From positions 1-38,934 of the IMG/VR virus record IMGVR_UViG_3300022752_000172: a stretch of DNA of 38,934 nucleotides; one strand, given 5' to 3'. Source of the DNA: a virus. This document shows positions 1,066-27,261 of this stretch, in pieces (the first letter of the stretch is position 1; each line of letters opens with the position of its first letter). The translations under genes and the position numbers were made by a program. The notes beneath the pieces were generated by a model. It made no database searches. It had not been told where the DNA came from and saw only the letters and a program-made list of their open reading frames with translations.

Positions 1066-2316
1066 TTATCTACTTACACCTTTTGCTCTTTGCTTGAACT
1101 TTTTTGGCTTCTGGGCAGGAAATAGAGCAGGTTTATACTCTTTTTTTTCACTTTGTTTTTTTGCTTGTTCGTCTAATTGTTCTATAATGTGCATCTGATT
1201 GGTTTGTTGAAAATAACGAATATATTCATTGTAGTTATTTTTTACGCGTTCTAGATGTGCCTGTGGTATAAGATTTTCTGTTAATAATTTCTTACAAGCA
1301 GCATACCCTATATGGGGCTTACCTGCGTAAAATGCGGTAGATGCTAGTTCATCTAGAACTCCATATTTATAAACATCCTCTGATACGAATAAAATATCGT
1401 CTGTTGGATATGGAATTTCAATAGCCATTTTAGCAAACAGATAAGATAGTTTAGGATGGCCCATCATACGATACACACGAGCAATTTGATATAGCGGTTC
1501 TGCTCTAAACGGACGAAGATTCCAAGCTTCTAAAAATGCTTGCTGTATCTGTTCCCATGGTTTATTTTGTAATCCTCTACACATTCCTATACGATAGGCA
1601 GAATAAAATTGCTCTTCTTCCCATCCACCCATTAGTATGCGTTTAAGGTATGCCTCTTCTGCTTTATCGTACATCTGTGCATCAAAATAACTTTGAGCAA
1701 GATAAAACTGATATCGAATATTATTAGGCTCTTCTATAAGAGCTTTTTCTAATAGTTCGGCATCTTTCTTATATTTTTCTACAGGAGTAATATCTTTATT
1801 TCTGGCTCCCAGAGTTCTAGCAATAATTTTATATGTTCCTGTCTCTATTTTTGCTAGAGCTGGTTTTTCTTTTCCTTCTACGGTTGGATATTCGTGAAGA
1901 ACACCAACATATTTCCAACCAATACCTGTTCTAAAAATTTGAGTTCTCCACCAAGAAAACTCTTCTCTTCCAAAACGTAAAGCAAAACCATCTATTTCGT
2001 TTGGTATATTTATAGGAAATTCGAACGTACCTTCAATATAGTCGTCCGCATCAATCATCCAAGCCCATGTTGCTTTGCCATCACATAAGGCTAATGCTTC
2101 TGATCTGTTGTGGCCAAATGAAACCCAAGGACGTTCGTGTAACTCACCTGGAATTCCCTTTTCAGCAAAGAATTGTTTAATTAGATCCTGAGTTCCATCT
2201 GTAGAACCGGTATCTACAATCACCCAGTAATCAATGTATTTGTAAATAGATTGTAAACACTCTTTAATAATGTGAGTTTCATTTTTTACGATCATTGACA
2301 GACATAATTTAGGCAT
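1066..2316 (-). CDS. Family 2 glycosyltransferase with C-terminal TPR-like helical repeats
   Basis: A 416-residue two-part protein. Residues 1-150 are a GT-A family 2 domain: SMIVKNE at 7-13, the nucleotide-binding motif DTGSTDGT at 35-42 and the metal-binding DADD at 89-92. Residues from about 180 to 370 are helical repeats with the TPR look (for example YQFYLAQSYFDAQMYDKAEE). It should transfer a sugar from a nucleotide donor; acceptor unknown. The last 30 residues are strongly basic. A canonical late promoter (TATAAATA at 2351-2358) and a GGAG site eight bases before ATG give it its own late expression, unlike the rest of the glycan island. Glycosylation of a virion protein or of a surface glycan are both possible. 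Confidence 0.88.
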   Translation of the reverse strand: MPKLCLSMIVKNETHIIKECLQSIYKYIDYWVIVDTGSTDGTQDLIKQFFAEKGIPGELHERPWVSFGHNRSEALALCDGKATWAWMIDADDYIEGTFEFPINIPNEIDGFALRFGREEFSWWRTQIFRTGIGWKYVGVLHEYPTVEGKEKPALAKIETGTYKIIARTLGARNKDITPVEKYKKDAELLEKALIEEPNNIRYQFYLAQSYFDAQMYDKAEEAYLKRILMGGWEEEQFYSAYRIGMCRGLQNKPWEQIQQAFLEAWNLRPFRAEPLYQIARVYRMMGHPKLSYLFAKMAIEIPYPTDDILFVSEDVYKYGVLDELASTAFYAGKPHIGYAACKKLLTENLIPQAHLERVKNNYNEYIRYFQQTNQMHIIEQLDEQAKKQSEKKEYKPALFPAQKPKKFKQRAKGVSR

Positions 2317-2318
2317 TA

Positions 2319-2687
2319 TCAGTGCTCCATGAAAAATAGTAGATCATTAGTATTTATACCAAGATTTCTTATTACAGAAAAAGAATGTGCAGTTTTATAC
2401 CCTGAAGGTTTGGTATCATTTACTAAAATTCTTGCCCCAGCTCCAGCATCAAAAATAATATGATCGTATCGTAATCCTAGATCCTTTAAATTTTTGATTG
2501 TTATATCTTTAATGGTTTCGGATCTTCCAGTAATAATAACAATCATATCTTCTTGTGGAATTCTAGAAAATAGATCTGCCACTCCTTCTAATAAAATATC
2601 AGGACCATTTTCGTATCCACGGTGTAATACAAGAGTACCGTCTAGATCAAAAATCCAAGTTTTTTTGAGTTTAGGATAATTATCCAT
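2319..2687 (-). CDS. Small HAD-superfamily phosphatase
   Basis: A 122-residue minimal HAD hydrolase. DLDGT at 14-18 supplies the nucleophile and acid-base aspartates (motif I), ITGR at 52-55 is motif II, and NDTKP at 90-94 is a plausible motif III/IV region. No cap domain fits in this length. Related phage and bacterial proteins dephosphorylate sugar phosphates or nucleotides. It overlaps the FkbM gene by eight bases and lies in a run with an isomerase and a nucleotidyltransferase-kinase, so a sugar-phosphate substrate is the likeliest reading; a polynucleotide or nucleotide phosphatase is not excluded. Confidence 0.82.
   Translation of the reverse strand: MDNYPKLKKTWIFDLDGTLVLHRGYENGPDILLEGVADLFSRIPQEDMIVIITGRSETIKDITIKNLKDLGLRYDHIIFDAGAGARILVNDTKPSGYKTAHSFSVIRNLGINTNDLLFFMEH
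2351..2358 (-). promoter_or_regulatory. T4-type late promoter for the TPR glycosyltransferase
   Basis: Exact TATAAATA on the minus strand, inside the 3' end of the HAD gene, 34 bases before the ATG at 2316. The leader contains GGAG at a normal distance from ATG. Confidence 0.7.
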
Positions 2688-3294
2688 ATTTTTTGTTTAT
2701 AAAAATAGCATTAGTTTCATAATTTTCAGCTCCTTCGTTCCAATCTTCTTGTATTAATTTAAAATTATTATTTTCTAAATAAGAGACAATATCTGCACGC
2801 GATCCTTGATTTATATAAAAATCTTTTAATATGATTTCTACTTCTATTTTTTTAACTTTTGTTATTTCTTCTCCTAGAGAAATAATAACGTCATAATCAG
2901 ATCCTTGCGTGTCAATTTTTAAATATTCTATAGAAGTTATATTGTGTTCTTTTATAAAAGAATCTAATCTAATACATTCTATATTATATGTTTTAGATTT
3001 AAATTCCATATTAAATTTTTTTTCTAATATTTTTGTAAATTCTCCAGATTTATCTATTTCTAAAAAAGAACCACAACCATGTGCTGGAGGATTTCCTATA
3101 TGATATGCATTAAATTCCTTTATTCCTGGAATTGAGCTTATTCCCACATTCAATGGTTTAACTTTTGGATTTTTTTTATTTATTAGTTCAGTATATCCGT
3201 CTGGAAATGCCTCAAATGCATATATGATTTCGCAATCTTTAAATTTATAAAGTGTACCACCATTTCCCGCTCCAACATCAATTCCTATTTTCAT
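2680..3294 (-). CDS. FkbM-type methyltransferase
   Basis: A 204-residue SAM-dependent methyltransferase. The SAM-binding motif I is GIDVGAGNG near residues 4-12, the acidic end of strand 2 is YAFEAFPDG at 25-33, and LKIDTQGSDYDVI in the second half is the FkbM-family signature (usually KiDvEG). FkbM-like enzymes O-methylate sugars of polyketides or glycans, so this is a likely glycan-tailoring enzyme. A longer frame uses GTG at 3306, but AGGTGAT lies seven bases before the ATG at 3294, so I chose 3294. It overlaps the upstream fusion gene by 17 bases. Substrate unknown. Confidence 0.85.
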   Translation of the reverse strand: MKIGIDVGAGNGGTLYKFKDCEIIYAFEAFPDGYTELINKKNPKVKPLNVGISSIPGIKEFNAYHIGNPPAHGCGSFLEIDKSGEFTKILEKKFNMEFKSKTYNIECIRLDSFIKEHNITSIEYLKIDTQGSDYDVIISLGEEITKVKKIEVEIILKDFYINQGSRADIVSYLENNNFKLIQEDWNEGAENYETNAIFINKKYG

Positions 3295-4783
3295 TGATAT
3301 AATCACCTTTTATTAATTTATTCCATAAAACTACAGCATTATAAAATGCTAGTAATACAGAACTGTAGTCTTCTTTGACGTATCCACAGAGAGAAAACCA
3401 TATCAAGACATGAAGGAGTTGTATTTCTTCTTTTGTGTATGGTATAGCATTAAAAAATGAGTCTTCGTATTTTTCCCAACCATTAGCATCAATAGAATAG
3501 GTAACACTATTTGGAGCCACTTCTAATGAATATTTTTTAGAATTAACATTATCGTAATTACCCACAAACGAATAGTATAATTTTGCCCAATCGTATCTGG
3601 GATCTCCATACAATTTATTTTTACCAAAATAGCCTCTAGGATCTATTAGATAGCATTTTTCATCCACATTAATCATATTAGAGAATGTACAATCTCCGTG
3701 TATTAGTCTGAATGACTTTACATTATATAATGATTCAATTTGTGTTTTAAATTCATCTATATGGTTACTGCTAAATGGATTTTTATATTTGTTTCCATTT
3801 ATAGTAATAAAATCATCAGTAAAGAAAGGAATTAGATCCGATACTTCGTGTACTCGTTCCAGTGTTTTTGTTAAATACACCAATCTCAATTCTTCTAAAT
3901 CTGTATTTATAAACTCGTAGTTGTGAATTGTATTAATAGTATTAATAACATCATTTAAAAAATGTTCAGATGGCTCATAACTAAAAGGATTTTTGCCGTT
4001 TAGTCTTTGAATAATAAATGGATCTTTTGAAATTAGTTTTGGCATTCTGTCAAAATTAAATGTGGTTAAATATTCATACCATCCTATTTCGTCTTTTATT
4101 AGTTTTTTGTATTCATCTACTATTGCTTCTTTTTGTACAGTGGTTTTATTAAACGTTAATTTATTAAAAAATCTATTAGTTTTATTTAGCAGATAAAATC
4201 GATCTTCGGTCCCAACATCATCAATATCTTTAATATCAAAAGATTCTACAAATACTTTGGACAAAAATGTAGTTAGAGATTGTTTTTCATCTAAACTGTC
4301 TAGATATTTCTTGTCTTTAAAGTAAAAAATACCAGCTACACCACCAATGTTAGCACTTTCTTTTAATAATTTTTGATGTCTAAAAGACCAACGACATAGA
4401 AATTTATCTTGTGGTGTAGTTACACCGATACCAATAGTATTCACATTTGGTTCTTGTATTTCTGTTTTTACCAACAGATCAGACCACAATACGAAAAAAG
4501 AACCGTCTACAGATTTGATTGCTTCTGGTATTCCTGCTGCTGTAGATTTTTCTGTAGAAATAATAAATTGCACATCTACTGATGGTCTATATTTTCTTAT
4601 ATATTTTATCAATACATCTGCATGATAATCGGTAATTACTATGAATTTACTGTTTGGATTGTTATCAAACAAATGAAATATAATAGGCTTTCCATCTATA
4701 GGAATTAATGCTTTGGGTTTCACCGAAGTGAGCCTACCCATTCTAGTACCGTAACCACCAGCTTGTATTATAAATGTTTTCAT
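3278..4783 (-). CDS. Bifunctional sugar nucleotidyltransferase / aminoglycoside-choline kinase-like fusion
   Basis: A 501-residue fusion. Residues 1-205 are a sugar-1-phosphate nucleotidyltransferase: the G-loop QAGGYGTRMGRLTSVKPKAL spans 7-26, and WSDLL at 100-104 is the usual metal-binding LGD-like aspartate. Residues about 210-501 are an APH/choline-kinase fold: HGDCTFSN at 362-369 (catalytic loop), LIDPRG at 379-384 (metal-binding Asp) and GDPRYDWAK at 393-401. The pair could phosphorylate a sugar, or another alcohol, and then couple it to a nucleotide. It follows a glycosyltransferase by TAATG overlap and lies near a KdsD-like isomerase, so it probably makes an activated donor for the neighbouring transferases. 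A LicC/LicA-like choline route is an alternative. Confidence 0.87.
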   Translation of the reverse strand: MKTFIIQAGGYGTRMGRLTSVKPKALIPIDGKPIIFHLFDNNPNSKFIVITDYHADVLIKYIRKYRPSVDVQFIISTEKSTAAGIPEAIKSVDGSFFVLWSDLLVKTEIQEPNVNTIGIGVTTPQDKFLCRWSFRHQKLLKESANIGGVAGIFYFKDKKYLDSLDEKQSLTTFLSKVFVESFDIKDIDDVGTEDRFYLLNKTNRFFNKLTFNKTTVQKEAIVDEYKKLIKDEIGWYEYLTTFNFDRMPKLISKDPFIIQRLNGKNPFSYEPSEHFLNDVINTINTIHNYEFINTDLEELRLVYLTKTLERVHEVSDLIPFFTDDFITINGNKYKNPFSSNHIDEFKTQIESLYNVKSFRLIHGDCTFSNMINVDEKCYLIDPRGYFGKNKLYGDPRYDWAKLYYSFVGNYDNVNSKKYSLEVAPNSVTYSIDANGWEKYEDSFFNAIPYTKEEIQLLHVLIWFSLCGYVKEDYSSVLLAFYNAVVLWNKLIKGDYINENRN

Positions 4784-5460
4784 TAAAATGAATATTTTAT
4801 TACTTCTTCTTGTATTGGAAATACTACTCCATTATGATCTAAATCATTTTCTGCAACTTTTATATCTCCCCATGTATGGTGTACTGTTGCGTTTTTTACA
4901 ATAAAAGTTTTTAATTTTAAAACACCAGTTTCTCGTAGCTCTGACATTTTCCAATCCATATTATAATCATTTTCGTATCGTCTTTCAAATATTAATTTGA
5001 CTATTTCTGGTTGTTTTTTTAAAAAAGCCATACCAAATGTCCAGTGTTTAATCATATCTTTAAATTTTACTCCAGGTTTAGGACCTATTTTTTCTTCTCC
5101 ACCCAATATGGATAAGTACATATCATATGAAAATCCATCGTATTCATTTGCTATGGTATCATTTTCTATTTTTATAAACAATTCACGTATTTGATCTTTG
5201 GTTATTTTATCTTCAAATTTAATATCTTCAGAATCGATAGCCCAATGATACTCTGTTTTTGTAGCTAAAAATGATGTAACATGTGAAGCAAATACTCCAC
5301 CAAATCTAGTTTTTAATATAGGATGGGCGTGAACACAATTAGGTCTATTTTCTTCTGTTAATTCATAAACTACATATCTGTTTGTATCAGAAAATATATC
5401 TTTCCAATAATCAGTATAACCACTATTGTTTGGTCTGTGCTTTAAATATACTTCAATCAT
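4783..5460 (-). CDS. Putative glycosyltransferase-like protein of the glycan island
   Basis: A 225-residue soluble protein without an assignable family. It has an acidic WAIDSEDI near residue 74, which could be a GT-A DxD-like metal site, and several conserved-looking Trp and His residues, including VHHTWGD near the C terminus. No signal peptide or membrane helix. It overlaps the isomerase gene (ATGA) and the fusion gene (TAATG), so it belongs to the same transcript. Glycosyltransferase is inferred from context plus the acidic motif; a different sugar-modifying enzyme is possible. Confidence 0.6.
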   Translation of the reverse strand: MIEVYLKHRPNNSGYTDYWKDIFSDTNRYVVYELTEENRPNCVHAHPILKTRFGGVFASHVTSFLATKTEYHWAIDSEDIKFEDKITKDQIRELFIKIENDTIANEYDGFSYDMYLSILGGEEKIGPKPGVKFKDMIKHWTFGMAFLKKQPEIVKLIFERRYENDYNMDWKMSELRETGVLKLKTFIVKNATVHHTWGDIKVAENDLDHNGVVFPIQEEVIKYSF

Positions 5461-6029
5461 TTTTGTTTTCCTATATCACCGCCTGGATGATTTTTATAAA
5501 ATTCTTCAACAGTAACTTGTCGATATTCTACAATCTTCATAGCTACACTATGTAATACTATAAGATAGCAAACTAATGAACATGTAGGAACTCTATTCCA
5601 CGGATCACACTCTTCTAAAAAGGGAATATATAAATCAAAATCACAATATTTTTTTAGTTTAGCATCATTATTGGAATGCAATAAAAATATTTTAGTACCA
5701 CAATTTCTTTTTCTTATTTTTTCGCAAAAAAATACTAATTCATCTGTATTGCCGCTCTTGGAAATAAGAATAACAGTAGAACCGTCAGATATAAGACCCA
5801 TATCTCCATGTACTGCATGTATAGGATCTACAAATATAGAACGGATTGTTAATGAATTAAAAGTAGAAGATACAATATTTGCAATGTGTGAATTTTTACC
5901 AATTCCAGAAAAATATAAAACATTAGAATCTTTTATTGATTCATAAAATGTATCTAACTCTTTGTAATTTATTTTTTGTAATAAATGCTGAATTGAGTTA
6001 TAATTTTTATTAATAATATTATCTAACAT
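5457..6029 (-). CDS. KpsF/KdsD-like SIS-domain arabinose-5-phosphate isomerase
   Basis: A 190-residue single SIS domain. SGIGKNS at 41-47, HAVHGDMG at 71-78, SKSGNTDE at 90-97 and NHPGGDIG at 180-187 reproduce the KpsF/GutQ/KdsD pattern, including the His of HPGG that is catalytic in KdsD. Family members interconvert ribulose-5-phosphate and arabinose-5-phosphate, the entry step to Kdo and capsule sugars. The CBS pair of the full bacterial enzyme (about 320 residues) is absent, as in some shorter homologues. No Kdo-8-phosphate synthase or CMP-Kdo synthetase is in the window, so the phage may divert host precursors or use a related sugar phosphate. Confidence 0.87.
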   Translation of the reverse strand: MLDNIINKNYNSIQHLLQKINYKELDTFYESIKDSNVLYFSGIGKNSHIANIVSSTFNSLTIRSIFVDPIHAVHGDMGLISDGSTVILISKSGNTDELVFFCEKIRKRNCGTKIFLLHSNNDAKLKKYCDFDLYIPFLEECDPWNRVPTCSLVCYLIVLHSVAMKIVEYRQVTVEEFYKNHPGGDIGKQK

Positions 6030-20938: not shown

Positions 20939-22381
20939 TCAGAGACCGAAACCGGTGTTACCGTGTAGATTGTTGACTTGGAAGATACGGTAATATTGAT
21001 TACCACCGAGAGCATTGATATCAGTGTTCTCAGCGAATGGATTGCTTACCATTCCGTAACGAGTCTTAAATCCAATCTTTGGTTGGAAAGTATCTTGATT
21101 TACAGCTCTTACCATTTGTAGCGGTACGTATGGGCAGTAGAATACACCTGCATCGTATGGGCTAGCACCACGATAACCGACTACAGCAAAGTCTGAACCA
21201 AGCTTGGCATAAGGATCAATATAAACCTTAAACTTGCCGTTTAGAATACCAGCAAAAGTGTTGCCGGTGTCATCAACTTCTAGTTGAGTTTGAACAGCTG
21301 GAGTTAGGTTAAGAAATCCACCCATGACGAGAGCCGAAGCTACGTCGCTGGAGCAGATTACGAAATTGCCCTTACCACGGCGAGTATCCTTAGCGATGGT
21401 GTTGGCTTCACGTTCAATTTGGAACATTAGACCACGGAAGCGTTCAGCACTCCAACGACCGTCAGAGTCGGTGTTGAGATCGTATACGCCACCACCAGTG
21501 CTATAACCTGTTAGATCGGTGTGTTGTGCACCGGTCTTAGCAACGCGATAGATGGTGTACATCATTTCACGATTGATTTCGTGAAGGATTTCGGTGCTGA
21601 GTAGGTTAGCTAGTTCGCTTTCAGCGTCGAGACCGTGTACAGCCTTGAGATCTTGAGCGAGCTCAGTGGTGTACTCTGCCTTTAGGGCACGGGTCTTGGC
21701 TTCTACAGCAGTTCTTTCGATGCTGAATGCCATTTGTTGGAAAGCATTACCGCTTTCGCCTAGAGTTTCTGCACGTGCGGTTAGCATAGCACGGAAATCG
21801 TCCATACCAGCTGTGTTGCCTCTAATGCCTGTGCCGGTGTTTAGGGTTGGGTCAATACCACCGGTAGCTGAGAATGCAGCACCATCTGAAGTACCACCTG
21901 AACCACCAAACTTAGCCCAAACTTCACCGAAGAGGGCTTCACGGCCACGGCCGTTGCTATTGCCCTTTTGACGATCTAGACCGGTCCAGTTCTTATCGCC
22001 TTGATCGGTGTAGCGGCTACGCATTGCGAAGATGAGGCCGGTTGGAGCATTCATGGGTTGTACACCAGCAATGTCGTATGCCATTAGGTTAGGCATGCTA
22101 CGACGAACTAGGCTGATTAGAATTGGATCGTAACCAGCTAGTGCACTGCTGCCTGAAGGAATGCCGCTTGGGTTAGCTACGTTAAAACCACCACCACCCA
22201 TTGAGTTGGCTGGGGCTTCAACAAGATATTGCTCACGGAGAGCCTTCTCTTGGTTTTCTAGTAGTACAGCAGTAACTTTCTTACGATATTGATCTTTAAT
22301 TTCTGGAAGTTCCTCGTGACTTAGTAGAGGATTCCATTTTTCTACGAGAGTGTCGTAGGGGGTTGTGTTAGCAAAATCCAT
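20939..22381 (-). CDS. 23: Major capsid protein gp23
   Basis: 480 residues (T4 521). The N-terminal DTLVEKWNPLLSHEELPEI, the central DPILISLVRRSMPNLMAYDI and VQPMNAPTGLIFAMRSRY are the gp23 signature. A prohead-protease site (L-V-E at residues 53-55, followed by APANS) predicts removal of a 55-residue propeptide, against 65 in T4. It forms the hexagonal HK97-fold shell. A CATAAATA promoter and AAGGAG site lie upstream, and a strong terminator follows. Codons are more GC-rich than in the glycan island, consistent with high expression. Confidence 0.97.
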   Translation of the reverse strand: MDFANTTPYDTLVEKWNPLLSHEELPEIKDQYRKKVTAVLLENQEKALREQYLVEAPANSMGGGGFNVANPSGIPSGSSALAGYDPILISLVRRSMPNLMAYDIAGVQPMNAPTGLIFAMRSRYTDQGDKNWTGLDRQKGNSNGRGREALFGEVWAKFGGSGGTSDGAAFSATGGIDPTLNTGTGIRGNTAGMDDFRAMLTARAETLGESGNAFQQMAFSIERTAVEAKTRALKAEYTTELAQDLKAVHGLDAESELANLLSTEILHEINREMMYTIYRVAKTGAQHTDLTGYSTGGGVYDLNTDSDGRWSAERFRGLMFQIEREANTIAKDTRRGKGNFVICSSDVASALVMGGFLNLTPAVQTQLEVDDTGNTFAGILNGKFKVYIDPYAKLGSDFAVVGYRGASPYDAGVFYCPYVPLQMVRAVNQDTFQPKIGFKTRYGMVSNPFAENTDINALGGNQYYRIFQVNNLHGNTGFGL

Positions 22382-22415: not shown

Positions 22416-23330
22416 TTAAACTTTTTTGACTTGACGAGTTACGGCACTGAGATAAGCAGCCATTGGTCCTTCTGAACTTACTGGAACTTTATTTTCCAGT
22501 AGAGTTTCTGGCTCTTTGGTTGAAACAGGAGCTGCTTTGAGATAATTCTCTTTCAGAACGGTAAGTTTATTCTTAAATTCGTCAAGAGTATTATAGCTGA
22601 TATTGTTTGCTAAAGAAGCAAGACGTTCAGCATCCACACGCGAAATATCCATTGTGCTTTCTAGGAATACTTCACGAGCATTGCTTTCATTGATTTGTTT
22701 CTTTAGTGAAACATTTGTTTTAATTTCGTTGTTCAGAGATTCTTCAAGCTTTTGGTTTTCTGCAAATAGATCGTCTAGAAGGTCGTGCTTGTTTTCTGGA
22801 ACTTCAACATAGTGGGTTTCAAACAGAGTACGTAGACCATTCATGAAACTTTCTGCAATTTCTGTTCTAATTCCACTTTCTACTTGAAGTTTGTTTTCAC
22901 CCATCCATTCTTCAACAACGTATGAAATGTATTCGTCTAGTTTGGTTGCAAGTTCGTTTACAACAGAACCAATCTCTTGCTCTATTAAAGCAGCAGATTC
23001 GGTCACGAGTTGTGTGCGAATAGTTTCTACTTTATCGGCCACAGCAGCTTCAAAAAGAACAGAAACTTTATTCTTGAATTCTTCTGTTAATTCTTCACCG
23101 CTGAATAGAGATTCTAGAAGACCTTCAGCCATTGGTTTGGCTTGGCCTTGTGGTGCAGCTTCACCGGCTGGTCCGGGAGGAACACTTCCGGGAGCAAGAG
23201 TTTTCATGTTTCCTGCTGGATTGGCAGCAGAATTGTCTAGAGTGCCCAGCATAGTTCCTCGGCCAGTGGTATCAAAATCACCACGTCCGGTAGCGTCCAT
23301 AACGACAGGTTTTTGTTTTTGTTGTGCCAT
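22416..23330 (-). CDS. 22: Prohead scaffold protein gp22
   Basis: 304 residues (T4 269). A Gly/Pro-rich first 65 residues are followed by GLLESLFSGEELTEEFKNKVSVLFEAAV (about 69-96) and a long acidic helical body with coiled-coil character near 195-215, the expected shape of the T4 core scaffold. Several L-x-E sites suit digestion by the gp21 protease to small peptides once the shell is complete. It lies between protease and capsid genes as in T4, with a late promoter and AAAGGA before it. Confidence 0.9.
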   Translation of the reverse strand: MAQQKQKPVVMDATGRGDFDTTGRGTMLGTLDNSAANPAGNMKTLAPGSVPPGPAGEAAPQGQAKPMAEGLLESLFSGEELTEEFKNKVSVLFEAAVADKVETIRTQLVTESAALIEQEIGSVVNELATKLDEYISYVVEEWMGENKLQVESGIRTEIAESFMNGLRTLFETHYVEVPENKHDLLDDLFAENQKLEESLNNEIKTNVSLKKQINESNAREVFLESTMDISRVDAERLASLANNISYNTLDEFKNKLTVLKENYLKAAPVSTKEPETLLENKVPVSSEGPMAAYLSAVTRQVKKV

Positions 23331-23398: not shown

Positions 23399-24259
23399 TT
23401 AATCATACCTTACCTGAGCAGCTCGTGGGTCATATTCTGCAGCAGCTTGAGCAACCGCAAGTTCTTTCTTCAAAGCTTCAGGATCTTTTTCCTGTAATGC
23501 TTTTGGTAACCACGAACGTACAAATTCAGTACTAATTAATGGACTATAAGTATTTACTCTCTCTATAGCACCTTCTTGGGAGTAACCAGTAGTTGCTAAT
23601 CTTCCCATAGACAGAGCTGCTTTTTCTTTAGATGGAATATTTCCATATATTGGATCTCCGCCTACTTGATGAGAAGTGAATATTGTTTCCAGTGCTGCTC
23701 TTGCAGAAGGCATTGGCTGATCTCCCTGTGCGGTTCCTCTCATCGCCCATTCACTTTTACCTCTTCTAAAATCTCGTTGGCTTTTTAGATAATCTTCACC
23801 AGCATGGGCTGTATTTTGTGGGGGTAGATCTTTGGATGGGCCGGTACTTAAAACAGAACGATTAACTGGAATGTTTATTCCTTCTTTTTCTTCTTTTTCT
23901 TTTTGTAGTTGTAGTTGTTTAATTCGGTCTGCAAATGTACTATAATTGTCTGTACTAGTAGATGAAGGGTATAGAGGGTTTAGTATCCAATCTTTTAGAT
24001 TTAGAGTTTTTAGTTTTGCACGATTTATAATTTGTTGTCGGGTTGTATTTGGATCGGTAATAATTTTTGCTACTATAGCAGCACTTCTTTCTTTATTTGC
24101 TGTCTTTATTAGTGGATCATCGTTTGTTTGTATTGATACAAGTTTATCTTTCTCTTCTTTTTCTCTTCTCCTTTCTTCCTGTTTCCTCTGTATCTCTACT
24201 TGCCTATCTTGCCTCAGGTCAAAATTATCTTCATTTAAAAATTCTTTAAAGCTTTTCAT
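23399..24259 (-). CDS. Capsid-core or internal protein with a T4-like capsid-targeting leader
   Basis: 286 residues between protease and scaffold genes. It opens MKSFKEFLNE, very close to the T4 internal-protein leader MKTYQEFIAE, which targets proteins to the prohead and is cut by gp21 after the Glu. Residues 18-45 are strongly charged (RQVEIQRKQEERRREKEEK), and the C-terminal half is helical with Ala/Glu-rich segments. The natural reading is a prohead core protein whose mature part stays in the head and may be injected with DNA. T4 has no gene of this size here. Function of the mature part is unknown. Confidence 0.78.
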   Translation of the reverse strand: MKSFKEFLNEDNFDLRQDRQVEIQRKQEERRREKEEKDKLVSIQTNDDPLIKTANKERSAAIVAKIITDPNTTRQQIINRAKLKTLNLKDWILNPLYPSSTSTDNYSTFADRIKQLQLQKEKEEKEGINIPVNRSVLSTGPSKDLPPQNTAHAGEDYLKSQRDFRRGKSEWAMRGTAQGDQPMPSARAALETIFTSHQVGGDPIYGNIPSKEKAALSMGRLATTGYSQEGAIERVNTYSPLISTEFVRSWLPKALQEKDPEALKKELAVAQAAAEYDPRAAQVRYD

Positions 24260-24262
24260 ATA

Positions 24263-24903
24263 TTAGATCTTTCGTAAAAAATCTTCAAATAATTTTATAG
24301 CTTTTTGTTCTAATTTTCGTGAAGACGTTTTTTTAATTTCTTGTTTGTATTGTTCAATATACATTTCTTCTAGAATTCCGTTATTCCATACCCATTCTTT
24401 TCCTTCCATAATGCCGTTAACAAACGCACCAGGAGCAGAAGGATCTGCAACAACGTCTACAGCAGAAAGCATAAAATCTGGTTGTACTTCATTGTATCCG
24501 TTTCGTGATTTGAGTGAACCCATACCACGAGTAGATACACCTAAACGAGCACCTTCAGCAATAAGATTTTTTACAATCTCGCCCATGGGAGTACTCATAA
24601 CTTTGGCTTTACCTTGTACATCTGTTCCGTGACAATTTAATTCTTTGATTATAATACAGCAACGATCTAAATTCACAGTTGGACCAGACGGGTGATTTAG
24701 TTCACCAAATGCTCTATTATTTTGAACGTATTCACGATTATAGCGAGTAACTTCATTTAAAAGAATATGCGAAGGGTATACTCTTTTATTTCTATTGAGA
24801 GTATCGGCCTGCATGAAAGTACCTTCAATAAAGAAGTTTTTACTTCCGTCTGGAGCAGCTTCAGTTAAAAAATCTACTTGTTCTACTGTTTCAGTTATTA
24901 ACT

Positions 24904-24907
<4 letters not shown>
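24263..24907 (-). CDS. 21: Prohead core protease gp21
   Basis: 214 residues (T4 212). The herpesvirus-assemblin-like fold is recognisable from FIEGTFMQADTLNRNKRVYP (26-45), FGELNHPSG (68-75, H72), GVSTRGMGS (123-131, S125) and DVVADPSAPGAF (151-162), supplying the Ser-His pair and a possible Asp. It matures gp23, gp22 and core proteins. The frame runs on to 24952, but that part is the reverse of a poly-glutamate coding repeat in the upstream gene; the ATG at 24907 overlaps that gene's stop (ATGA) and gives MKLITETVEQVDFLTEA. Confidence 0.94.
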
Positions 24908-25294
<387 letters not shown>

Positions 25295-25305
<11 letters not shown>

Positions 25306-25696
25306 TTGTTTTCCTCTCAATTTTGGATAAATTTAGTATTCTATTAACGGCTTCTCCTGATTCGGTTAATAGTTTTAATAATCGTTCTTTACTGTTATTA
25401 TTTAGATTTTCGTATAATTTAGAAATACCGTCTACCTGTTCTGGTGTTAAATTAATAAAAATCCCATCTTTTGTTGTAAAAGATGCAGGTATATCGATAG
25501 GGACATTTTCTGGTTTTTCTTGAGTATCAGTATACTGAAAAGAAGCTAATTCTTTTAGTATATTTTTACTATTTTCTTTGTAAATCTGTTCTAAAAGACT
25601 AGAGGCTCTATCCTCTAGGGCTTCTTCCAGTATTGTTTTAAATACGTCTTTATTACCACGAAGAACCATATTTATAGCTTTAATTAAAGGATTCAT
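25295..25696 (-). CDS. Small prohead-core-like protein (gp67/gp68 position)
   Basis: 133 residues. Its N terminus, LIKAINMVLRGNKDVFKTILEEALEDRAS, has the same helical pattern as gp67 and as the next gene's product, suggesting an ancient duplication or a gp68 equivalent. The rest is polar, with VPIDIPASFTTKDGIFINLT in the middle and a helical C terminus, and no catalytic motif. The ATG overlaps the gp20 stop (ATGA). Position between portal and protease is that of T4 67 and 68. Confidence 0.72.
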
Positions 25697-27261
25697 TGTG
25701 GTGGTTCCTGTCCTTGTTGTTGTGCTTGATCTGGAGACTGTCCTGCAAGCATTTGTTGATACGCTTGAGCTTCTTGTGCTTCTAATTGTCGTTGTTGTTC
25801 ACGATTTATTTGTGCATCTATTTCTAGAATATCTTCTTCGGATTGTTTCAAGAAATTCTTTCTAACATATTCTTCAGAAAAGAAACGACCGATATAAGGA
25901 GTCACAGCTGCAATAATATTTAAACGTTCAGCAAGAATATCATTATTTTTTAATTCTGTGAAATACGAATCTTGATTATAACGGAAAGTTATATCTGGAC
26001 TAATACGATTCCAGTCCTCTTCGGTCATCAATCCTTTAAGAATAATTTGTGTTTTTAATAGATCTAAGAAAACAGTACTGAATTTTTGACGAAGACGATC
26101 AATAAATTTATTAAATTTAACTTCGTCTCTGGTTATTTCAGCAGAACGACCCATATTAAATCCACTATCTGCCATCATACGAGAAAGAGGAACACTTAAA
26201 GAACGGTACAGTTTTTGTAGCAGATACTGCACGTCTTCCATCTGGCCTAAGTTTTGTCCCCCATCTAGTGTGCTGATTTCGGTTCCACGACCGCCTTCAC
26301 GACGTGGCATCCAAAAATCTTCTAACATACTCATATGATTACGGTCGTCTTTAATTTCTCCAGTTTTAGGATCGTAAATAACTTTATTACGATAACGATT
26401 CATGATTTCACGAAGATATTGTTCTGCTTTTTGTTTAGGAAGATTACCAACGTCCACGTAAAATATACGACGTTCTGGAGCACGAGAAATGCGGTAAATA
26501 GCAACTGCATCTTCTATTTGACGAAGAAGATTTAAAGGACGAACTGCTTTTTGGAGATAACCAACTACTCGTCTTGTTGTTTGGTCTATGATTCCTGAAT
26601 GTGCATATGCGATCGTATCGGGAGCTATTTTCCAACCGGCAGTGGTTGTGGGAAACGCTGCATCTTTATCGGTGTCAGAGTAAATATAATATTCTTCTAC
26701 AGTTTTAACGGTACTAAAAGGAACCATTCCTGAATACACCTGTTTATCTTTTTCTACTTTACGAATCTTTTTAATCTTTATGGGATCTACAGGAATAAGT
26801 TCTGTTATACCTTTTCGCAGATCATTCTTATCAATTTTTTTATAGAAAAATATTTTAGAATCAATATACCATCGTCTAAAAATATCTGGAGCTTTATTTG
26901 AAAAATCTAATAATCTTAATATGTGATTAAACTCTGTATAGATTTTTGTTTTTATTGTTTCTGATAGATTAACATGATCTAGATTTAATTTTACTGGTTT
27001 TCTATCCAGATCCATTACTATTGCTTCATTTGTAATATCTTCAATTGCTGCATCTACTTCTGGATACAAAGACATTGCACGATAGTGTTGAACCATCTGA
27101 TTCTCATCGCGCATTGCTCCAGAAAAATCTACGTATGTTCCAAATACACCACCCGTTTCTAGCACGTAAGAACCATCGTATGGTTCTGGCGTAATAATAT
27201 CTTTAACAACGGGTTCTTGTTTTGTTTTTCCTAATTTAAAACCAAATAGTTCAAGGTCCAT
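25693..27261 (-). CDS. 20: Portal vertex protein gp20
   Basis: 522 residues (T4 524). YDGSYVLETGGVFGTYVDF near the start, HYRAMSLYPEVDAAIEDITN (about 59-78) and FRRWYIDSKIFFYKKID (about 128-144) are clear gp20 signatures. The C terminus is Gln-rich (QQGQEPPQ). The dodecameric portal occupies one vertex, nucleates the prohead and is the DNA channel and packaging motor dock. A TATAAATA promoter ends seven bases before ATG; its last bases double as the stop of the tail-tube gene, and no Shine-Dalgarno site exists. Confidence 0.97.
   Translation of the reverse strand: MDLELFGFKLGKTKQEPVVKDIITPEPYDGSYVLETGGVFGTYVDFSGAMRDENQMVQHYRAMSLYPEVDAAIEDITNEAIVMDLDRKPVKLNLDHVNLSETIKTKIYTEFNHILRLLDFSNKAPDIFRRWYIDSKIFFYKKIDKNDLRKGITELIPVDPIKIKKIRKVEKDKQVYSGMVPFSTVKTVEEYYIYSDTDKDAAFPTTTAGWKIAPDTIAYAHSGIIDQTTRRVVGYLQKAVRPLNLLRQIEDAVAIYRISRAPERRIFYVDVGNLPKQKAEQYLREIMNRYRNKVIYDPKTGEIKDDRNHMSMLEDFWMPRREGGRGTEISTLDGGQNLGQMEDVQYLLQKLYRSLSVPLSRMMADSGFNMGRSAEITRDEVKFNKFIDRLRQKFSTVFLDLLKTQIILKGLMTEEDWNRISPDITFRYNQDSYFTELKNNDILAERLNIIAAVTPYIGRFFSEEYVRKNFLKQSEEDILEIDAQINREQQRQLEAQEAQAYQQMLAGQSPDQAQQQGQEPPQ

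Follow-up and report, generated by a model that had tools for sequence, protein, structure and literature searches.

A predicted packaged internal head protein in a variable slot between the prohead protease and scaffold genes of a T4-like phage

The window, the whole 38,934-nt stretch of viral DNA that was analysed, is an IMG/VR-type contig of an uncultivated T4-like phage and carries a head-gene cluster in which an additional gene (hereafter, gene X) lies between those for the prohead protease and the scaffold.

20939..22381, minus strand: gp23, major capsid protein (Gp23, 2e-136), with the propeptide site YLVE/APA (slashes mark cut sites)
22416..23330, minus strand: gp22, scaffold and presumed docking partner (T4_CASP, 3e-57), with 12 L/I-x-E sites
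23399..24259, minus strand: gene X, encoding a basic protein of 286 aa (pI 9.0) that is predicted to be packaged as an internal head protein (ORF and coding statistics)
24263..24907, minus strand: gp21, prohead protease and presumed processing enzyme (Pfam Peptidase_S77, 9e-38)
24904..25305, minus strand: acidic core protein at the gp67/68 position, pI 4.2, with a poly-Glu tail
25295..25696, minus strand: second small core-type ORF at the gp67/68 position, rich in L/I-x-E sites
25693..27261, minus strand: gp20, portal (Portal_T4, 8e-171)

The gp21 stop codon is followed after 3 bp by the start of X, and gp22 is the next gene downstream. The translation of window positions 23399-24259 (minus strand) begins with MKSFKEFLNEDNF, and its coding status is supported by a codon-usage log-likelihood per codon of +0.18 in frame versus about -0.65 in the other two frames. 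The coordinates, the length and the flanking genes 21 and 22 that a sequence-only reading had given for this ORF were confirmed by the ORF analysis and the Pfam assignments of the neighbours. Its label of an "extra gene" holds insofar as an additional gene is present, but X is not merely extra, as the slot is occupied in every close relative examined.

In an alignment with T4 gp21, the positions of His72, Ser125 and Asp151, which we take to be the catalytic residues, are conserved in the window gp21, which also has a cleavage site of its own (FLTE/A). The conserved start of gp21 is the ATG at 24907, and a TTG upstream of it would add an Arg/Gly-rich extension. A poly-Glu tract (window 24904-24960), encoded by a GAA/GAG repeat that overlaps the gp21 start, closes the acidic core ORF. 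Compared with 50,697 phage records, the window gp23 had identities of at most ~57%, with marine T4-like phages the nearest. Away from the head genes, a sugar/surface cluster (window 1066-6029) has nearly consecutive genes for a family 2 glycosyltransferase, a HAD phosphatase, an FkbM methyltransferase, a nucleotidyl transferase and a SIS-domain protein.

The product of X was divided as follows.

24230..24259, minus strand: predicted capsid-targeting leader MKSFKEFLNE, residues 1-10 (T4 ip leader match), with a predicted gp21 cut after Glu10
23402..24229, minus strand: predicted mature protein, residues 11-286, helical and largely disordered (AlphaFold2)
23402..23647, minus strand: C-terminal domain, residues ~205-286, IPSKEKAALSMGRLATTGYSQEGAIERVNTY ... 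AEYDPRA (blastp and alignments with slot proteins)

The T4 leaders (NC_000866) are MKTFKEFTSTTTPVSTITE/A (MKTFKEF...) in ipI and MKTYQEFIAE/A in ipII and ipIII, and each of these proteins has one L/I-x-E site. In T4, leader residues 4 and 7 are the main determinants of targeting and residues 8 and 10 those of processing, the gp21 cut falling after L/I-x-E (PMC9026906). At these residues X has F4, F7, L8 and E10, that is, aromatic residues at positions 4 and 7 and an LNE ending at residue 10, within the 10-19-residue range for a leader-end gp21 motif. The predicted cut is followed by Asp in X (MKSFKEFLNE/DNFDLRQ) and by Ala in all three T4 internal proteins. The X leader scored 31 against MKTYQEFIAE (BLOSUM62), bearing out the likeness at key positions that had been noted from the letters alone. 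As high a score was reached by only 4 of 3840 ORF N termini in related loci (mean -1.5, SD 6.9), all of them located between gp20 and gp22, and leader-like N termini of accessory ORFs were enriched in the gp20-gp22 interval (14/353 vs 4/902 elsewhere, p=1.5e-5). The leader match thus exceeds what chance would give and is linked to the region of the head genes. The search for the leader in other genes that had been suggested alongside this likeness gave a split result: no second copy was found elsewhere in the window, where the leader is unique to X, and leader-like starts were found in the related loci, with the enrichment just given.

As a direct search of viral contigs turned up no relative of X, relatives were gathered via gp21 and gp22. 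A slot ORF was present in 21/21 related contigs that span gp21-gp22 and have a gp23 at least 67% identical to that of the window (a few contigs are redundant), and in only 1/116 more distant T4-like loci (gp23 <62%). With gp23 at least 67% identical, genes 21 and 22 are 570-2450 bp apart and a main ORF fills the space; below 62%, the gap is typically ~40 bp and empty. Complete slot ORFs in the clade range from 174 to 800 residues, and their mean pairwise identity is 26%, versus 80% for gp20, 76% for gp21, 59% for gp22 and 79% for gp23. For two of the loci (L005 and L102; L numbers denote loci), nucleotide identity is 95-100% across gp20-gp21 and most of gp22, 56-67% within the slot, and high again at the 3' end of the slot gene. 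Judged from this alignment, the pattern is a cassette replacement signature, in which the conserved C-terminal end would be one homology arm. The gp23 genes of the same pair diverge too, which places recombination outside the slot as well.

The slot proteins have several features in common. An L/I-x-E site lies within the first 20 residues in 12/14 independent slot leaders vs 6/55 background ORFs (p=1.6e-7), for example in MKLQFKQLLNE/A, MLSFKQYLRE/A, MKIKLVNLIE/G and MKLSGLKQLVE/A. Their bodies have 0.27 such sites per 100 aa (observed/expected 0.61), in comparison with 4.2 in gp22 and 2.1-4.7 in the ORFs at the gp67/68 position, as expected for products that survive the gp21 protease. X itself has two sites, LNE10 and LQE257 (3.4 expected), the latter being the only one in the 276-residue body and near its end. 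Every one of the 24 slot proteins has a basic pI (8.9-11.3; X, 9.0), whereas that of the acidic core ORF at the gp67/68 position is 4.1-4.4.

The C-terminal domain of X matched slot proteins of relatives by blastp (L003, E=4e-9; L082, 4e-6; L084, 7e-4), and the pattern P..E.AA...GRL...GYS..G...R...Y ... YDPRA is found in X and several relatives. The slot proteins of L004, L110 and L113 have another C-terminal type instead of the usual domain (around AAAFDP....HY, with a final DDWR). Searches of X against Pfam, PHROGs, NCBIfam, PADLOC and PDB gave no credible family or structure match. No homology to mature T4 IPI, IPII or IPIII was detected by tblastn against the 50,697 phage records or through a PHROG; the sole tblastn match, to an Erwinia phage (E=0.5), was non-significant and dismissed as noise. 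The AlphaFold2 model of X has low confidence (pLDDT 62, pTM 0.28), with a helix at residues 11-44 and long disordered stretches, and a second model was also of low confidence (pTM 0.37).

Leader-like elements recur inside the longer slot proteins. The motif F(K/R)..(A/S/T)LK.LL.E stands at the start of two short alleles, L005 and L106, and reappears within long alleles; it was defined post hoc, after the sequences had been seen, and the contrast between 10/24 slot proteins and ~5150 other ORFs, among which only a duplicate record of L005 has it, is therefore descriptive. In L107, L110, L112 and L113, the internal motif is flanked by two L/I-x-E sites 14-18 residues apart, and in L003 a looser motif is flanked by sites 12 apart. 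Five such internal site pairs compare with 0.35 expected for random placement (p=5e-5) and, more modestly, with 1.4 expected under residue shuffling (p=0.023). The later-fetched L193 and L194/L195 have the same layout, with an N-terminal leader and an internal LKSLLND/A element. In T4, Asp at the acidic leader position allows targeting and inhibits processing (PMC9026906), and by this precedent these proteins may dock twice and stay uncut at the internal element. The internal leaders are read most simply as the result of two leader-bearing cargo genes having fused to encode a predicted polyprotein. The start of L102 coincides with that of the second module of L193, and X has the N-terminal leader and no internal one. 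A wider proposal takes the 21-22 junction as a dedicated hypervariable cargo slot, in which long alleles would be polyproteins whose internal targeting element is excised by the protease, freeing two delivered proteins, short alleles would be the downstream module alone (L102 vs L193), and module shuffling would give rise to new injected effectors; we hold it tentatively and regard it as on balance somewhat doubtful.

Taken on the sequence evidence, X is likely to be a T4-internal-protein-like capsid cargo that docks by its leader, is cut by gp21 after Glu10 and is delivered as the remainder, and the 21-22 junction, with the same joint likelihood, an exchange site at which the leader type and the C-terminal domain are retained and the rest is swapped. 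The sequence-only reading had already proposed a packaged protein with a mature start after residue 10. Its packaged-cargo part is supported by the leader positions, the adjacent protease, the recurrence of leaders in otherwise unrelated slot proteins, the site-poor bodies, the basic charge and the cassette turnover; cutting after residue 10, retention in the virion and injection are steps that we infer. During prohead assembly, the 10-residue leader would dock X on the gp22 scaffold core, gp21, encoded immediately upstream, would cut after Leu-Asn-Glu10, and the basic 276-residue remainder would stay with the DNA and enter the host with the genome. Weighing against this explanation are the Asp after the predicted cut and the further L/I-x-E site LQE257 near the end of X, and neither a structure nor a family points to a biochemical role. 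The swapping of the slot would most simply arise from arms-race selection on the delivered protein. A host-directed role is suggested by the hypervariability, by analogy with T4 Ip1-3, which have only the leader in common and each block a different GmrSD restriction enzyme (PMC12373910). For Ip2 and Ip3, injection and inhibition of host restriction enzymes were demonstrated in 2025, after the same had been done for Ip1, and the genes of these proteins are hot spots (PMC12373910). By this analogy, anti-defence has close to, though not quite, an even chance of being the main function of X, with ejection or DNA-binding roles as the alternative.

Within the packaged-cargo explanation, X could act in the virion or at ejection, through DNA condensation or membrane passage, instead of against host defences. 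The basic charge of all slot proteins fits such a role, as do Gly/Ala-rich hydrophobic stretches in several C-terminal domains (e.g., L109), but X has no such stretch and rapid replacement better fits an interaction with the host, and we consider this role rather unlikely. More improbable is that X is a structural prohead-core component like gp67/gp68, needed for head assembly and trimmed or destroyed by gp21 instead of being delivered. X does belong by position to the core-gene cluster, the slot is filled in every close relative, T4 IPIII likewise affects head assembly (PMC9026906), and the shared C-terminal domain might reflect a conserved structural function. Against this, the gp67/68 position is already taken by two ORFs, which have 5-6 L/I-x-E sites in 133 aa each vs 2 in the 286 aa of X; X thus lacks the many gp21 sites of gp67/gp68 core proteins and does not resemble a protein that is chopped up, and a mean identity as low as 26%, when gp22 stays at 59%, is not expected of structural core parts. 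Coincidental likeness of the leader, with X an ordinary accessory gene of unrelated function in the head operon, is very improbable: ten residues are short and leader searches always give some matches, as the 4 in 3840 illustrate, but those 4 and the significant enrichment fall between gp20 and gp22, leader and cut site are repeated in independent slot proteins, and a reversed-pattern control gave 0 matches vs 11 with the real pattern in 21 contigs.

As capsid cargo, X most resembles T4 IPI, IPII and IPIII, which are basic and have an M-K-x-(F/Y)-x-x-F leader ending in a gp21 site, with a single early cut site; like the slot proteins, they are hypervariable among relatives, with homology limited to the leader. 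The differences are that X lies between 21 and 22 whereas the T4 ip genes are far from that junction, that X has 286 aa vs 95-193 aa, that Asp follows its predicted cut, and that, unlike them, it has a C-terminal domain in common with its counterparts, some of which also have a second, internal leader. T4 Alt, a packaged ADP-ribosyltransferase, is packaged, trimmed by gp21 and ejected (PMC9026906), as proposed for X, and was compared only via X having no Pfam family. The inner-head proteins of phiKZ and SPN3US are carried in the head, as proposed for the slot proteins, and have propeptides and in some cases more than one cut site, but their propeptides are mostly long, their protease motif is different and a gp22 counterpart is unconfirmed (PMC5694885). 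T4 gp67 and gp68 are encoded by adjacent genes and are gp21 substrates, as proposed for X, but have several cut sites in short proteins.

Leader-bearing ORFs were also observed outside the slot. L180 (88-4760) and L181, both from the 153,850-bp relative behind L086, and L182, from the contig behind L117, have clusters of them with the leaders MLSFIQYLAE, MKPFIEYLRE, MKTFIEYIQE, MKRFTQYLTE and MKSFREYLKE. Their products are candidate packaged cargo, and among them are a nucleotidyltransferase-like protein (phrog_36119) and a HELVHA metallopeptidase-like protein. The leader-bearing nucleotidyltransferase genes in relatives were considered as proof of portable cargo and dropped to a lead, given that homologues in isolates start with weaker or altered sequences and that a Maribacter phage (Molycolviridae) also has L-x-E at this place. 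DUF6267 proteins of T4-like phages (L183 3771-4922, L184 3227-4459, L201 and L202), isolates included (Methylophilales and Stenotrophomonas phages), have leader-like starts (MKKFVEFLSE, MKKFTSYLAE, LINFSKYITE and MMKFTQFLAE) and are a possible virion cargo family. In other T4-like groups (L095-L100, L090-L092 and L185), leader-bearing ORFs lie between gp20 and gp21 (MKSFKQMMAE, MKSFKQFITE), so the location of cargo slots within the head cluster may vary.

T-even phages are already known to have internal proteins that are directed by a leader and are hypervariable. As far as the open-access literature shows, the slot dedicated to such genes at the 21-22 junction, the C-terminal domain common to X and several relatives, and the arrangement with internal leaders appear to be new, and an earlier description elsewhere is possible. 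An always-filled and rapidly swapped slot beside the protease suggests that uncultivated T4-like phages hold many unexplored candidates for injected effectors, which could be found by position and leader instead of by homology. The internal excisable targeting element, if true, would be a new way of loading two cargoes from one gene.
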